Assembly (NCBI GenBank): GCA_026390735.1
Contig: JAPLFJ010000053.1
Span: 1 to 48,284, forward strand
DNA: 48,284 nt
Source of the DNA: Ignavibacteriota bacterium
GTDB lineage: Bacteria > Bacteroidota > Ignavibacteria > Tepidaquicellales > Tepidaquicellaceae
Direction: 5' to 3'
Part shown: positions 25,781-30,918 of the stretch, one piece after another
Layout of the letters: each line of letters opens with the position of its first letter
Numbering within the stretch: the first letter of the stretch is position 1
Notes under the pieces: model-generated
What the model was told of the DNA's origin: nothing
Database searches by the model: none
The model's input: the letters and a program-made list of their open reading frames with translations, nothing else
Made by a program: the position numbers and the translations under genes

Positions 25781-27130
25781 ATGAAAGAAGGCACACGTAA
25801 AGCTGCATTTGCAGGAAGCTGGTATCCGGACAATCCTGCAGAATTGTCTAAGCAGATAAAATCTTTTCTGGATAAAGTAGAATACCTGAACCTGAATGTA
25901 AAAGCAATTGTAGTCCCTCACGCCGGTTATATGTTCTCGGGGCAGACTGCGGCCTATGCTTTTAAACAGATTAATAAATCCACGAGAAAAGTTATTATAC
26001 TCGGCACTGCGCACAGATACTCACTTAATGGTTCCTGTGTCATAGATTATGATTATTACGATTCACCCCTCGGTAAGGTTAGATTAAGTAAGGATGTAAA
26101 AGAATTCCTTAGTGAAAGAAATGTGTTTAGTATTCCCGAAGCCGACACAGAAGAACACTCTATTGAAATCGAGATACCATTCCTTCAAACCGTACTGGGT
26201 GATTTTGAAATCCTCCCTGTTATAGTCGGGAAAACCGAGCATAAACAATTCTCTGAACTTCTTGAAAAATATTTAACGAATGATTCAGTTATTGTTGCAT
26301 CTGTAGACTTAAGTCATTTCAATAAGTATAACGATGCTGTAAAAATAGACGCGCATTCTATTGAGTGTATATTGAACTTCAATTCGGGTGGGATAAGAAA
26401 AGCCCAGATAGATTCTCCGTACGCAATTGCAGCCTTGCTGGACCTTGCAAAAAGAAAGGACTGGGAAGTAAAACTTCTTGACTACAAGAACTCGGGTGAT
26501 ATTGTTTCTGACAGAAGTTCTGTTGTAGGTTATTCTGCTATAGTATTTTATGAAGTAGAAAAAGCTGAGGAAATTAAAGAAGCCGAATATTTTACTGCGG
26601 CCGAACAGGTGTCTATGGTTAACATAGCAAAGAATTCCGCTGAGATGTTTGTAAAGACAGGCAAAAGATATTCCGAAACAGAATATCACTCAAAATTTAA
26701 AGAAAGTCTTGCCTGTTTTGTTACTGTGAAAACCGGCGATGAATTAAGAGGGTGTATCGGTACAATCGAACCCGTCGATTCTTTATATAATAGTCTGATT
26801 GACAATGCCATATCCGCAGTCTCAAGAGACCCGCGATTTTCTCCTGTCGGGGAAAAAGAATTATCAAAACTCAACTACGAAGTCTCAGTTCTTTCTCCGC
26901 CTGAATTGTTCGACCCTCAATCACTCGATGAACTCTTTGAGGGAATAAAGGGCAAAGGTTTAATCATTAAAAAAGACTACCGCTCTGCAGTTTACCTGCC
27001 GCAGGTCTGGGAACACTTTTCAGACGAAAAGGGTTTTCTACGCAGTTTGTGTCAGAAAGCAGGAATGTTTGTTGATGAATGGAAGAATTATAAGGATATG
27101 AAATATTATGTGTTTAGTTTAATCAATTGA
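25781..27130 (+). CDS. Fused AmmeMemoRadiSam proteins B (Memo) and A (AMMECR1)
   Basis: The product is 449 residues and joins two proteins usually encoded separately. Residues 1-265 are Memo-like: RKAAFAGSWYPDN at the start, VVPHAGYMFSGQTAAY, HSIEIEIPFLQ and SVDLSHFNKYNDA, with the conserved His residues of the family. Residues about 275-449 are AMMECR1: ACFVTVKTGDELRGCIGTIE contains the hallmark LRGCIG, followed by RDPRFSPV and LPQVWEHF. With amrS two genes upstream, the set is complete. The biochemical role of the system is unsettled. The start lies 11 bases after the M15 gene, with AAGATT upstream and no strong ribosome site. Confidence 0.93.
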   Translation: MKEGTRKAAFAGSWYPDNPAELSKQIKSFLDKVEYLNLNVKAIVVPHAGYMFSGQTAAYAFKQINKSTRKVIILGTAHRYSLNGSCVIDYDYYDSPLGKVRLSKDVKEFLSERNVFSIPEADTEEHSIEIEIPFLQTVLGDFEILPVIVGKTEHKQFSELLEKYLTNDSVIVASVDLSHFNKYNDAVKIDAHSIECILNFNSGGIRKAQIDSPYAIAALLDLAKRKDWEVKLLDYKNSGDIVSDRSSVVGYSAIVFYEVEKAEEIKEAEYFTAAEQVSMVNIAKNSAEMFVKTGKRYSETEYHSKFKESLACFVTVKTGDELRGCIGTIEPVDSLYNSLIDNAISAVSRDPRFSPVGEKELSKLNYEVSVLSPPELFDPQSLDELFEGIKGKGLIIKKDYRSAVYLPQVWEHFSDEKGFLRSLCQKAGMFVDEWKNYKDMKYYVFSLIN

Positions 27131-27149
27131 ATAAGAGGTTAAAATCTTA

Positions 27150-27181
27150 TTTGACAATAACGAATATTTTAGTCATTTTTG
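27150..27181 (+). promoter_or_regulatory. Candidate promoter of the Cys-rich/TonB/YHS operon
   Basis: TTTG at 27150-27153 and CATTTTTG at 27174-27181 have a 20-base spacer, the usual -33/-7 distance in Bacteroidota. The -7 box differs from TAnnTTTG only in its first base. Transcription would begin almost at the GTG of the 27187 gene, implying a leaderless message, which lowers confidence. Confidence 0.3.
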
Positions 27182-27186
27182 TGTAA

Positions 27187-27615
27187 GTGAAATTGTTTAT
27201 TAAAAAATATTGCAACGCTAAAGTTTTAACAGTAATCTTATTATTGTTATCGTTTAACCTCGTGTCTTTCGGACAGGACATCAACAACTGTTTGTGCAAA
27301 AAACAATCTGTTGAAAGCAAACATTCCTGCTGTAAAAAGGAAGCAAAGAAGGAAACTTCTTCGAAGAAATGTTGTGCACCTAAAGAAAATCAGGAATCAA
27401 AGAATTGCAATACAGATAAAATAGATAATAAATCGCAAAAAGACGAGGGTACTTTAAACGAAAGTAAACTCCCAAAACTTGAAGCGAAAACAATAGTTCA
27501 GGAATCACTTAGTTCTACATTCAATAAAACTACTAATCTAAAATCATATCGTTCAGACAATTCGCCCGGCTTACGGTCGAAAGTCTTTCTTGATATATCC
27601 AGTCTCCGCATTTAG
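27187..27615 (+). CDS. Small Cys-rich exported protein
   Basis: The product is 142 residues and starts at GTG. A hydrophobic signal segment covers about 11-28 (VLTVILLLLSFNLVSFG), ending near FGQ. The mature N-terminal half is Lys- and Cys-rich, with NNCLCKK, HSCCKKE, KKCCAPK and KNC. Repeated CC pairs and CxC are typical soft-metal ligands. The C-terminal half is polar without motifs. It lies 49 bases upstream of the TonB receptor on the same strand and shares the CCK style with the 29965 product. I infer a periplasmic metal-binding role. The protein is not one I recognise. Confidence 0.7.
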   Translation: MKLFIKKYCNAKVLTVILLLLSFNLVSFGQDINNCLCKKQSVESKHSCCKKEAKKETSSKKCCAPKENQESKNCNTDKIDNKSQKDEGTLNESKLPKLEAKTIVQESLSSTFNKTTNLKSYRSDNSPGLRSKVFLDISSLRI

Positions 27616-27664
27616 AAACACGGAATAGGTACGTCCGTTTTTAGTTTCTAAATTTCAAAATCTA

Positions 27665-29914
27665 ATGAAGAAAATATTATTAATGGCATTATTGCTTTTA
27701 CTTGGAGTAAGTAAAGTAAATGCTCAGACAAGTCTGGATAAAACCTTAAACGGTATAGTTTACGGTGCTAACGACAAAGGCAAAGAGCCTCTGGACGGCG
27801 CTGTTATTAAGTGGATTAATACCAGGAAAGGCGACGTTACAAGCCCCGATGGAAAGTTCAGCCTTTCAGCCGAAGGAATCAGCGACAAAAGAATCATTGT
27901 GTTCTACGTGGGATATAAAAGAGATACAATAAATGCCGAGGGCAAGAATTTTGTGGAAGTTGTTCTGCAGAATAATTTTTCAACTCAGCAGATTGTTGTT
28001 GAAAGCAAAGTGAATTCTTCTTTCATTGAAAACGGTAACGCAAAAACAGAAGTTATCACACAGGGCGAACTGAAGAAAGCCGCCTGCTGTGATTTGTCAG
28101 GTATGTTCGGAAGCAACACTACAGTTGAAGTAACAGTATCCGATATTCTGACAAACACAAAAGAACTTAAAATGCTCGGACTTGAAGGGGCATACACACA
28201 GGTATTGCTGGATAATATGCCTATTATGTCAGGTCTTGTTACAAAGTATGGTGTAACGAGCATTCCCGGAACGCTTGTTAACAAAATAACAATTTCCAAA
28301 GGTTCAAACTCTGTTATGCAGGGATACGAATCAATCAGCGGGATTATGAATGTTCTTCTGAAAGACTACAATACCTCCGATGCATTTCTGTTCAACGGTT
28401 ACCTGAACAGTATGCTTGAGAAACAGATAAACCTGAACACAACCGCAAAGATTAACAACTGGAAAACGCTCCTGGCATTTCAAACAGTTCAGGAAGCAAA
28501 AAGACTGGATGAAAACGGAGACGGATTTCTCGATGCCCCACTAACGACAAGGTATATGTTTTTTAACAAATGGAAATATGGCAATACAGATGATGATTTT
28601 ACGAACGTAACTATCGGACTTAAGTATCTCGACGAGAAAAGAATCGGCGGACAGAAGAACTTTGATTACAACAAAGACCTTGGAAGCAATACCATATACG
28701 GACAAACAGTGAACATTCAGAATGGTGACGCATACACGCGCATCAGTCAGGAAATTGGTGCCGACTTACACCTGAAACTATATGCCGCTGGTTCATTCTT
28801 TAATCAGGAATCTTATTATGGAGTAACGAAGTACGACGCAAAGCAAAGAAATTTCTACACTAATGCAACTATTGAAATTCCAGTTGGTTTGAGAAGTTAT
28901 GTAAGGCTCGGAACATCATATAAATACGAAAAAATCAATGAGGACATAAAGTTTCTTCAGCCGGAAAACAAAACTTATGCAGGACCGTATGAAAAGCTTG
29001 AATCCATTGCAGGTGTGTTTTCCGAAGCATCGCTTGATTTTAAAAACCTGAAATCTTCTGTCGTTGGCGGTCTAAGACTCGATTACCACAACAAGTACAA
29101 CCTTATAGCAACTCCGCGTGTTATGCTTCGTTTCCAGTTATCGAAAGAAACCACAATAAGGGCTACCGCAGGAACTGGATTCCGCACAATCAATCTGTTC
29201 AGTGAAAACTCAAATTTACTGGCAAGCGGAAGAAATATACTTGTACCGCAGGAATTGAAACCCGAAAAGATGATTAATTACGGAATAGATGTTCTGCAGT
29301 ATTTTGACTTCGGTAAGGTGTCGGGAAATTTGAACCTTGATTTTTACAGGACGGAATTCAGCAACAAGATAATGCCTGATTATACAGTGAACCCGCTTGC
29401 CGTGACCTTCATGAATGTTTCTGACGCTGCGACAAATGTATTTCAAATAGAATCAACTTTTTCTGTTTTTAACAACGTCGATTTCAAATTAGCATATAAA
29501 TACATAGACCAGTATTATTATCATAAGGGAATGAAAATGCAGCAGCCGTTCAATTCAAAACACAGAGTGGTTTCGTCGCTACATTACAGCCCTAAAGACA
29601 ATAACTGGAATGCGAATGTATCGTTACAATGGTTTGGAGTGCAGGCATTGCCTTCAACGAAGGATTATCCCGTTGAACTCCAAAGACCGTCGGAGTCAGA
29701 CCCTTATACGATAGTTAACGGACAGTTCACGAAGAACTTCAAACATTTTGAAGCTTATGTTGGTGTAGAGAACATATTCGACTTCAGGCAGCAGAATCCT
29801 ATAGTCGATCCTGCACAGCCGTTCAGTCCTTATTTTGATACATCGTACATATGGGGACCGACAACAGGCAGAACGTTCTATTTCGGATTCAGATTATTAT
29901 TCAACAAATTATAA
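27665..29914 (+). CDS. TonB-dependent outer-membrane receptor
   Basis: The receptor is 749 residues with a signal peptide ending KVNAQ. An N-terminal carboxypeptidase-regulatory-like domain covers about 28-110 (LNGIVYGAN through VEVVLQNN). The plug follows (about 115-235), with TQVLLDNMPIMSGL and GTLVNKITISKGSNSVMQGYESISG. The barrel (about 240-749) ends FYFGFRLLFNKL with the expected C-terminal aromatic pattern. The plug carries a vicinal pair, Cys141-Cys142, in ELKKAACCDLSGMF. Related Bacteroidota receptors with ACCNLSE at this position are, from memory, often found near metal-handling genes. The flanking genes are Cys-rich here too, so I infer metal or metallophore transport. No TonB or ExbBD gene is in the window. 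Confidence 0.92.
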   Translation: MKKILLMALLLLLGVSKVNAQTSLDKTLNGIVYGANDKGKEPLDGAVIKWINTRKGDVTSPDGKFSLSAEGISDKRIIVFYVGYKRDTINAEGKNFVEVVLQNNFSTQQIVVESKVNSSFIENGNAKTEVITQGELKKAACCDLSGMFGSNTTVEVTVSDILTNTKELKMLGLEGAYTQVLLDNMPIMSGLVTKYGVTSIPGTLVNKITISKGSNSVMQGYESISGIMNVLLKDYNTSDAFLFNGYLNSMLEKQINLNTTAKINNWKTLLAFQTVQEAKRLDENGDGFLDAPLTTRYMFFNKWKYGNTDDDFTNVTIGLKYLDEKRIGGQKNFDYNKDLGSNTIYGQTVNIQNGDAYTRISQEIGADLHLKLYAAGSFFNQESYYGVTKYDAKQRNFYTNATIEIPVGLRSYVRLGTSYKYEKINEDIKFLQPENKTYAGPYEKLESIAGVFSEASLDFKNLKSSVVGGLRLDYHNKYNLIATPRVMLRFQLSKETTIRATAGTGFRTINLFSENSNLLASGRNILVPQELKPEKMINYGIDVLQYFDFGKVSGNLNLDFYRTEFSNKIMPDYTVNPLAVTFMNVSDAATNVFQIESTFSVFNNVDFKLAYKYIDQYYYHKGMKMQQPFNSKHRVVSSLHYSPKDNNWNANVSLQWFGVQALPSTKDYPVELQRPSESDPYTIVNGQFTKNFKHFEAYVGVENIFDFRQQNPIVDPAQPFSPYFDTSYIWGPTTGRTFYFGFRLLFNKL

Positions 29915-29964
29915 ACTTTAACATTAATAAAAACCAAACAAAACCTTAGAAAGGAAAAACAAAA

Positions 29965-30549
29965 ATGAAGATGAAAATCTTATTAGCATTGGTTGCAATA
30001 TTGTTTGCAACATCAGTAATCGTCAAAGCACAGGAAAACAACTGCTGCAAAGATAAACAGAAATCAGAATGCAAGATGAACAAAGAAGAATGCAAGATGA
30101 ACAAAGAAGAATGCAAAATGGATAAGTCAGAATGTAAGATGAACAAGGAAGAATGCAAGATGGACAAATCAGATTGCAAAATGAAAAAGGAAGACTGCAA
30201 GATGAACAAACCTGAAGTAGAAAAAACAGGAAACGCACAGGGTTCTGGAACATCAGATTCGGCAAAAGTGTGTCCTGTATCGGGCGAACCTTTAGGTCAC
30301 GAAGGTGAACCTGTCAAGTTCACATATTTAGGAAAAGAATATGAATTCTGCTGTGCGGGCTGCGTAAAGAAATTCAAAGCAGAACCAATGACATACATCA
30401 AAACAGAATTAACATGCCCAGTAATGGGTGAAGCCGCATCAAAAGACGTCTCAACAGTCGTCGACGGCGTAAAGTATTATTTCTGTTGCGAAGGTTGTAT
30501 CTCAAAATTCCAGAAAGACCCAAAGAAATACTTAGATAAAATCAAATAA
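29965..30549 (+). CDS. Cys-heptad repeat protein with two YHS/TRASH-like domains
   Basis: The product is 194 residues with a signal peptide ending IVKAQ. Residues 35-83 are seven perfect heptads of the form (E/D)CKMxK(E/S/P), placing Cys at 36, 43, 50, 57, 64, 71 and 78. Two similar metal-binding domains follow. One begins CPVSGEPLG and has YEFCCAGCVKKFK; the other begins CPVMGEAA and has YYFCCEGCISKFQ. They match the YHS/TRASH-like pattern CPVxGE...YxFCCxGCxxKF used for soft metals. The Cys-heptad segment is highly charged and probably helical, presenting all thiols on one face. It is the last gene of the operon and is followed by a strong terminator. Function is inferred: periplasmic metal sequestration or delivery. 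Confidence 0.85.
   Translation: MKMKILLALVAILFATSVIVKAQENNCCKDKQKSECKMNKEECKMNKEECKMDKSECKMNKEECKMDKSDCKMKKEDCKMNKPEVEKTGNAQGSGTSDSAKVCPVSGEPLGHEGEPVKFTYLGKEYEFCCAGCVKKFKAEPMTYIKTELTCPVMGEAASKDVSTVVDGVKYYFCCEGCISKFQKDPKKYLDKIK
30067..30213 (+). repeat. Seven 21-bp in-frame repeats encoding Cys heptads
   Basis: Each unit reads roughly GAATGCAAGATGAACAAAGA in DNA and differs by one to five bases from its neighbours. The copies encode one Cys every seven residues. The low-complexity DNA also makes long reverse-strand open frames, which are artefacts. Confidence 0.85.
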
Positions 30550-30576
30550 ACTTAACCGGAATAATTAAGCTTATTC

Positions 30577-30612
30577 AGCAGCCCTCTTGTTCTCACATCA
30601 GGGCTGCTTTTA
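30577..30612 (+). terminator. Rho-independent terminator of the metal operon
   Basis: AGCAGCCCT (30577-30585) pairs with AGGGCTGCT (30600-30608) around a 14-base loop and is followed by TTTATTTG. It lies 28 bases after the YHS protein stop. Confidence 0.85.
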
Positions 30613-30918
30613 TTTGTAACCATACATTTCCCAACTTGTCATTCCTGCGTGTTCTTAGCAGGAAACGTTCTTTGTTCAGCGAAGCTAATCTCTACTCATA
30701 CAATTCCTTCTCTAAATCTTTTACCCTAAAAAATCTTTTCTCTGTGAACCTCTGTGTCTTCTCTGTGTGCTCTGTGAACCTCTTTTAAGATTCCCCTTTG
30801 TAAAAATATGTGATAATCTGTGGGAGTTAGATTCTCTCAAATTTCATACCCAGTTTTAAATTTCAAATATCTTGTAACCTTTCCCCCCGCCCTTACGTCT
30901 AAATAATAAAAGACCAAT
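30613..30918. other. Intergenic region with dispersed repeat pieces
   Basis: No gene is seen. It holds an inverted repeat TTCCTGC/GCAGGAA (30642-30664) and TTTTACCCTAAAAAATC (30720-30736), the reverse complement of the core of the 14.5-15.1 kb array. A CTCTGTGAACCTCTGTGTC-type tandem tract follows (about 30741-30783). A poly-C tract is at about 30883-30890 ahead of the RDD gene. Confidence 0.6.

Follow-up and report, generated by a model that had tools for sequence, protein, structure and literature searches.

A putative nascent-chain metal-sensing leader upstream of a TonB receptor gene and a double-TRASH gene in an Ignavibacteriota genome

The forward strand of contig JAPLFJ010000053.1 of an Ignavibacteriota bacterium (assembly GCA_026390735.1; positions 1 to 48,284, the whole stretch of DNA analyzed here, are called the window) carries a small Cys-rich open reading frame (ORF 1), followed by the genes of a TonB-dependent receptor (ORF 2) and of an exported-looking protein with two YHS/TRASH-like domains (ORF 3). 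In our opinion, ORF 1 is probably a metal-sensing leader of the CruR/CutF kind, whose nascent chain would govern the envelope metal operon of the receptor and the double-TRASH protein. This reading is based on features revealed by computation, i.e., the 5' position of this coding leader, a constant distance between its Cys residues and its end, the conserved end itself, the lack of a predicted fold, and an RNA pairing anchored at the stop codon. The three genes and the RNA elements between the first two are as follows:

27187-27615, + strand: ORF 1 (P0001), 142 amino acids (aa), GTG start; putative leader ORF
27610-27619, + strand: 5' arm of the closing stem, AUUUAGAAAC; includes the leader's last codon and stop
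27620-27643, + strand: inner hairpin (ACGGA, 9-nt loop, UCCGU) followed by a U run, attenuator-like; from folding and covariation in congeners
27644-27653, + strand: 3' arm of the closing stem, GUUUCUAAAU; ends 11 nt upstream of the receptor AUG
27665-29914, + strand: ORF 2, TonB-dependent receptor, 749 aa; from Pfam, AlphaFold2 and Foldseek
29965-30549, + strand: ORF 3 (P0003), exported-looking double YHS/TRASH protein, 194 aa; from Pfam

The leader ORF and the stem anchored at its stop codon

The product of ORF 1 consists of a signal-like N-terminal helix, a Cys cluster (last Cys C74), an unstructured stretch and the end SPGLRSKVFLDISSLRI, directly followed by the stop codon. AlphaFold2 predicted no fold beyond the signal helix (hydrophobic helix 2-38; predicted local distance difference test score, pLDDT, 55.9; predicted template modelling score 0.23), and no Pfam family, DUF2946 included, was matched. 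The differences between the leaders of two relatives (loci L002 and L003; L and G numbers denote loci and genomes) fall at codon positions 1, 2 and 3 in the numbers 24, 16 and 58, which indicates that the leader is translated.

In a set of 23 Ignavibacteria proteins, the window's included, the last upstream Cys lies 62-69 aa from the C-terminus (mean 64.3, standard deviation 1.8; 68 residues in ORF 1), and in 40 proteins of the HYC_CC_PP family (NF047658) the distance from the last CC to the C-terminus is 72.1 (standard deviation 1.9). The respective standard deviations are 4.6 for the Cys cluster itself (the 23-member set) and 5.0 for the HYC-to-CC distance (HYC_CC_PP), and the middle part between the Cys residues and the end shows about 21% identity in both sets. 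The 23 members exclude L055, which is of the same order and has a spacing of 65, as well as seven loci from other orders or unrelated metagenome-assembled genomes (MAGs; L004, L005, L056, L057, L059, L061, and L062), and the rows of L063 and L064, whose contigs are identical to those of L003 and L002, were dropped. For these spacings, Cys residues within the last 40 positions (L040, L042, L051, and L052) were disregarded, as was a CC among the last 35 residues of L107. Measured from the last CC, the spacing is 63-70 in 18 of 22 relatives, 79-90 in L002, L003, L037, and L038, and 80 in the window.

The end motif [FLY][LRI]I-stop is present in 22 of the 23 order relatives (window included) and in 29/40 HYC_CC_PP proteins. 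Within the 23-member set, Arg occupies position -2 in 19 proteins and is encoded by five codons, and Leu at -3 is encoded by four; this use of several codons argues for selection on the residues at these positions. The Ile at -1 is ATT in 23/23, and selection on residue and on nucleotide are not separable there.

The U-run hairpin of the window is enclosed by ten pairs between 27610-27619 and 27644-27653. The fold of 27607-27667 has -12.5 kcal/mol (z -2.75, reached by 2 of 200 shuffles), the duplex of the two arms -9.7, and the fold of 27613-27667 gave p 0.04. The inner hairpin is common to four congeneric loci, with three of its five pairs changed on both sides (equalled in 22 of 500 shuffles). 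When intergenic folds were compared with shuffles (L057, L058, L061, L116, L130, and L137 left out), the mean z was -3.22 for 37 HYC_CC_PP loci (p<0.05 in 24) and -1.69 for 27 loci of the class (p<0.05 in 10).

The arm at the stop codon pairs with the bases just upstream of the next start at an average of -7.72 kcal/mol over 65 loci, versus -4.19 (standard deviation 0.26) for permuted partners; by group, the values are -9.39 versus -4.81 in 37 HYC_CC_PP loci and -5.51 versus -3.78 in the 28 loci comprising the class and the window. Sliding of the 5' segment along 36 and 22 loci, against swapped partners, gave pairing that culminated sharply at the stop codon, with z -10.8 for HYC_CC_PP and -3.4 for the window group, and pairing was at background at least 12 nt away from it, except for z -2.7 at -12 in the HYC_CC_PP set. 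The effect was small in 155 other adjacent gene pairs of the same loci, used as a control (-5.55 versus -4.94), and a rank of 0.05 or less was reached by 26/65 leader loci versus 18/155 of these pairs. A stem was also observed at L056 (9212-9706, - strand), whose leader ends with HPPRG-stop and has 45 aa between its last Cys and the end; there, an 11-bp stem starting from the stop codon covers the Shine-Dalgarno (SD)-like GGAG of the receptor gene.

The proposed switch and its alternatives

In the mechanism that we propose, ORF 1 would be exported during its own translation, and with the ribosome at the conserved end the Cys cluster, 62-69 residues back, would be clear of the ribosome and probably of the Sec channel. 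The ribosome and the Sec channel together span approximately 62-72 residues, and this agreement with the observed spacing suggests that it is periplasmic metal which would be read. The presence or absence of metal on the Cys residues would decide whether the ribosome, having reached the end of ORF 1, stays there, with the C-terminal residues as the putative arrest site, or is released. A held ribosome would cover the 5' arm and block the stem (in this genus also the U-run hairpin), leaving the receptor gene on, and after release the stem would form near the next start codon and expression would drop. As the stem takes in the last codon of the leader and its stop codon, it would form only once the ribosome has left. 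The receptor would then move a metal chelate, and its plug Cys pair and the TRASH domains might hand the metal on. The PP motif of HYC_CC_PP proteins, about 17 residues from the end, would be inside the exit tunnel. As a candidate stall site PP is disfavoured, because a ribosome stalled there, about 17 codons upstream of the stop, would be too far away to cover the stem, and PP is lost in the window.

Several observations weigh against this reading. The window folded with more flank (27590-27690) gave z -0.34; its closest relatives, L002 and L003 (receptors 70-71% identical), have the hairpin only and lack the closing stem (duplex -1.8 and -1.9); and pairing in the combined group of Ignavibacteria, class and window is weak overall (median rank 0.39). 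Later Cys residues, disregarded in the spacing, occur in 4/23 relatives, and the leader before the Cus genes of the same genome has a spacing of 52 and no closing stem. Moreover, P0001 did not match HYC_CC_PP, PP is found in only 3/23 order relatives, and 17/40 HYC_CC_PP leaders have a same-strand ORF at most 150 nt upstream, so that a position first in the operon is unsupported. As far as the accessible parts of the respective papers go, the two known leaders work in opposite senses, CruR being relieved and CutF held by Cu (PMC9426467, PMC9973294), and CutF alone gave no strong stalling (PMC9973294). As L002 and L003 lack the outer stem, attenuation by the inner hairpin may be the working part in this genus.

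It is quite possible, although we place it below even chances, that the same leader switch responds to a metal other than copper (Zn, Cd, Co, or Ag), or that the genes serve detoxification and are switched on by an excess of metal, instead of serving uptake and being switched on when metal is needed. The first gene after this leader type is an RND efflux gene in 18 of 40 cases, the receptor group of L114 holds an 831-aa HMA-bearing ORF (probably the single P-type, or E1-E2, ATPase that adjoins the relatives), and the TRASH/YHS and RND families are not copper-specific; on the other hand, the functional relatives CruR and CutF sense Cu and HMA proteins occur as partners, and neither the metal nor the sign of the response is readable from sequence. 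Because this leader type precedes efflux pumps, a metal-induced group seems somewhat more likely than a starvation-induced one.

The original prediction took the first gene for a metal-capture protein, and a stable exported Cys-rich product that passes metal to the receptor or to the TRASH protein would indeed agree with the signal-like N-terminus and with the many Cys residues at conserved positions. We find this unlikely, as a regulatory leader fits better with the lack of a predicted fold, with a Cys-to-end length that stays fixed while the sequence varies, with the RNA stem anchored at the stop codon, and with the presence of such ORFs before RND pumps as well. Still less probable is that ORF 1 is translated solely for coupling or attenuation through RNA, with metal control residing elsewhere (a transcription factor or RNA), since such a role, although consistent with the stem at the stop codon and the U-run hairpin, has no need of the amino-acid-level conservation of the Cys residues, spacing and C-terminus, and Rfam gave no match over 27000-30700.

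Returning to the nascent-chain leader, we tentatively put forward a broader and rather speculative version of it, in which ORF 1 is a diverged form of a leader family widespread in Bacteroidota and Ignavibacteria that acts as a molecular ruler: arrest at [FL][LR]I-stop would bring the Cys pair immediately beyond the Sec channel, so that periplasmic metal would be read by the ribosome, and the stop-anchored stem would turn arrest into expression, so that one switch would serve both receptor operons and efflux pumps. A second leader type, with a spacing of about 45 residues and the end ...PPPKA-stop before an RND pump of genus g17, would read metal at another depth. This second type (CNCxCC, ending with ...PPPKA or PPPRS-stop) was observed before the pump at L045, L048, L050, and L070, and it diverges from the receptor group, which places two leader types back to back; in the three measured cases its last Cys precedes the end by 43 residues.

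The relation of ORF 1 to HYC_CC_PP (curated cut-off 28 bits) is a distant one. No match of P0001 was obtained up to E 1, nor any match in its own genome. Like the members of this family, ORF 1 has a Cys pair, a tail of near-constant length, a hydrophobic-[L/R]-I-stop end and a place before the same receptor family, but HYC and PP are absent (alignment A4; SPG stands in the window where L002, L003, and L149 have PPG) and its tail is 68 instead of about 72 residues. Among relatives from the wider class, L005, L061, and L062 exceed the cut-off and L059 is slightly under it, and hhalign of the two groups gave 95.9%, limited to the signal and Cys region. HYC_CC_PP ORFs were found in 58 of 198 genomes sampled from the phylum, and 40 of the 77 matches, some from one genome, were fetched.

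The receptor, the TRASH protein and their neighbourhood

The further features of the locus are listed below.

27150-27181, + strand: weak Bacteroidota-like promoter (TTTG, 20 nt, CATTTTTG), from sequence and scan; 5 nt upstream of the GTG
28085-28090, + strand: codons of C141-C142 in the conserved plug motif ACC[D/N]L
30066-30210, + strand: seven Cys heptads (CKMNKEE type), a 21-nt repeat in 6.9 copies; seven by eye
30577-30616, + strand: intrinsic terminator (stem 30577-30608, -19 kcal/mol, z -5.0)

All components on which a three-gene metal-handling group had been predicted, i.e., three same-strand genes with Cys pairs, heptads and YHS/TRASH domains, were recovered by ORF calls, Pfam and repeat search. 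ORF 2 belongs to the TonB-dependent receptors, with the Pfam barrel, plug and CarbopepD_reg_2 above cut-off. The AlphaFold2 model (pLDDT 85.1) has BtuB as its nearest solved fold in Foldseek (13-14% identity), OprC appears at ranks 38, 42, 43, and 50, and a sequence search of solved structures gave only distant matches to the plug and the CarboxypepD-type domain. The predicted vicinal Cys pair of the plug proved to be conserved, with the ACC[D/N]L motif in 44 of 49 receptor rows and the pair in at least 90% of alignment A1.

Both the seven Cys heptads and the two YHS/TRASH-like domains ascribed to ORF 3 were likewise confirmed by repeat search and Pfam, in which YHS (PF04945, two stretches) and TRASH_HVO_1752_C (PF24273) exceeded the cut-off; the search of solved-structure sequences with ORF 3 returned nothing significant. 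Of 23 such proteins, only the window's and that of one congener (L148) carry the heptads, which were rejected as the core of the system; in the sequence comparison they are a recent expansion rather than a defining part.

As for the limits of the operon, the strong terminator was confirmed and the candidate promoter is weak. The consensus behind the promoter call is one which we take to be that of Bacteroidota; it was found in 5 of 31 leaders versus 9.8% in shuffles, which does not set the leaders apart from the shuffles. A -7-like element ends 2-5 nt upstream of the leader start in the window (27174-27187), L004, L041, L051, L059, L103, and L120, as would be expected of a leaderless mRNA, and across the set this element did not exceed shuffles. 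The window promoter would yield an almost leaderless mRNA. A sigma-70 promoter and terminator scan was uninformative for the operon, the terminator being missed because its loop is long. Since an upstream gene on the same strand (25781-27130) lies only 56 nt from ORF 1, the 5' limit stays unsupported. This gene, also found at L002 and L149, presumably combines Memo-like and AMMECR1-like sequences; the two form a single ORF in the window and two ORFs in L149, and they adjoin the metal group in these congeners.

The co-occurrence of the three genes, a check set beforehand, was borne out. Of the 44 genomes of the order, 29 have receptor homologues (E <1e-100, families f1 and f2), the window's own genome among them. 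By hand count, 24 of these 29 have a P0003 homologue no more than 3 kb from the receptor (it is missing in G014, G018, G019, G035, and G039; the receptor of G019 and that of G039 lie at a contig end), and in 24 the group follows a small Cys-rich ORF (missing in G007 and G017, and also in G031, G039, and G041, where the group is at a contig edge). The order leader-receptor-TRASH is found in the window, L002, L003, and L037, and leader-TRASH-receptor in most other loci read; in the Bacteroidota MAGs L004 and L005 the leader is followed by a small exported protein, HMA-like by motif, and the receptor. The ORF next to a HYC_CC_PP gene is on the same strand in 39/40 loci, mostly 48-200 nt away, and the Pfam assignments of this first gene include RND (18), TonB plug (8), HMBD (4), HMA (3), and OEP (2); in 12/40 loci the HYC_CC_PP gene stands before the same receptor family as the window's.

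The local absence of a P-type ATPase or RND pump, claimed for the system, holds for the window and fails at sister loci. In six g17 genomes (G029, G031, G034, G035, G036, and G038) a TIGR00914 RND pump is adjacent and divergent, and the congener G002 (L149), whose flanking genes are the same, has a leader, the TRASH gene, a second leader, CusC-like and CusB-like genes and a TIGR00914 pump, and no receptor. There the first leader stays with the TRASH gene though the receptor is absent, and the second such leader precedes the Cus-type operon. The window's own genome carries, on other contigs, a CopA-like ATPase gene and a CusA-like TIGR00914 pump gene after an ORF ending with STFLI (L145). This ORF (G000:C16, L145:4524-4871) has 115 aa, ends with ILHSTFLI and lies upstream of the pump operon. 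At L127, L131, L133, and L139 the CusA-like pump appears as two adjoining ORFs, about 430 and 645 aa long, through either a natural split or a frameshift.

The neighbourhood agrees with the suggested soft metal, such as copper, as the relatives adjoin Cus/Czc-type RND pumps, HMA or HMBD proteins and, once, a P-type ATPase; it points to the handling of a soft metal, probably copper. COX1, carried by 55/59 genomes, was too uniform to be linked with the receptor.

Comparison with known leaders and significance

In the literature searched, metal sensing by an exported peptide during its synthesis has been studied for CruR and CutF, both from Pseudomonadota; statements on published systems below refer to the accessible parts of the sources. 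CruR (DUF2946), the upstream ORF (uORF) of Bordetella bfrG/crtA (PMC9426467, PMC12914433), resembles ORF 1 (presumably exported as well) in being a small exported Cys ORF directly upstream of a TonB receptor gene, with a Cys motif at a fixed distance from a conserved C-terminal motif and a poorly structured product. It differs in that its CXXC and RAPP motifs stand 45 residues apart, its intergenic region measures 162 bp and termination is Rho-dependent, in contrast to the 68 residues, lack of RAPP/PP and of a DUF2946 match, 49-nt intergenic region and stop-anchored stem of ORF 1.

Rhodobacter CutF (cutFOG, PMC9973294) shares with ORF 1 a Cys motif, a short intergenic stem-loop near the next start and metal genes downstream, and its signal peptide has a possible counterpart in the signal-like N-terminal helix of ORF 1, but its stem shields the SD sequence, whereas that of ORF 1 starts at the leader's last codon. 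ORF 1 agrees with the published CutF-like filter in length (142, below 150 aa) and in having a same-strand gene within 1000 nt (49 nt), and it lacks the PP in the last 15 residues which that filter needs. Bacteroidota account for 19% of 5,334 CutF-like proteins (40% normalised), with no mechanism given (PMC9973294), and a 2025 survey did not find RAPP/RGPP-type copper-related uORFs in this phylum (PMC12992588). The copper receptors OprC and CrtA share the TonB receptor fold with ORF 2; CrtA is preceded by a leader in many operons but has no conserved Cys (PMC12914433), unlike the window's receptor family, which is marked by the vicinal plug pair.

Our searches found no paper on HYC_CC_PP and no direct study of copper-regulated receptors in Bacteroidota, and the literature covered (main texts outside subscription) did not describe a stop-codon-anchored stem or a spacing of about 65-72 residues. 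The combination of such a stem with a fixed Cys-to-end distance would provide a concrete, testable mechanism and would allow metal operons to be predicted with nothing but the DNA sequence.

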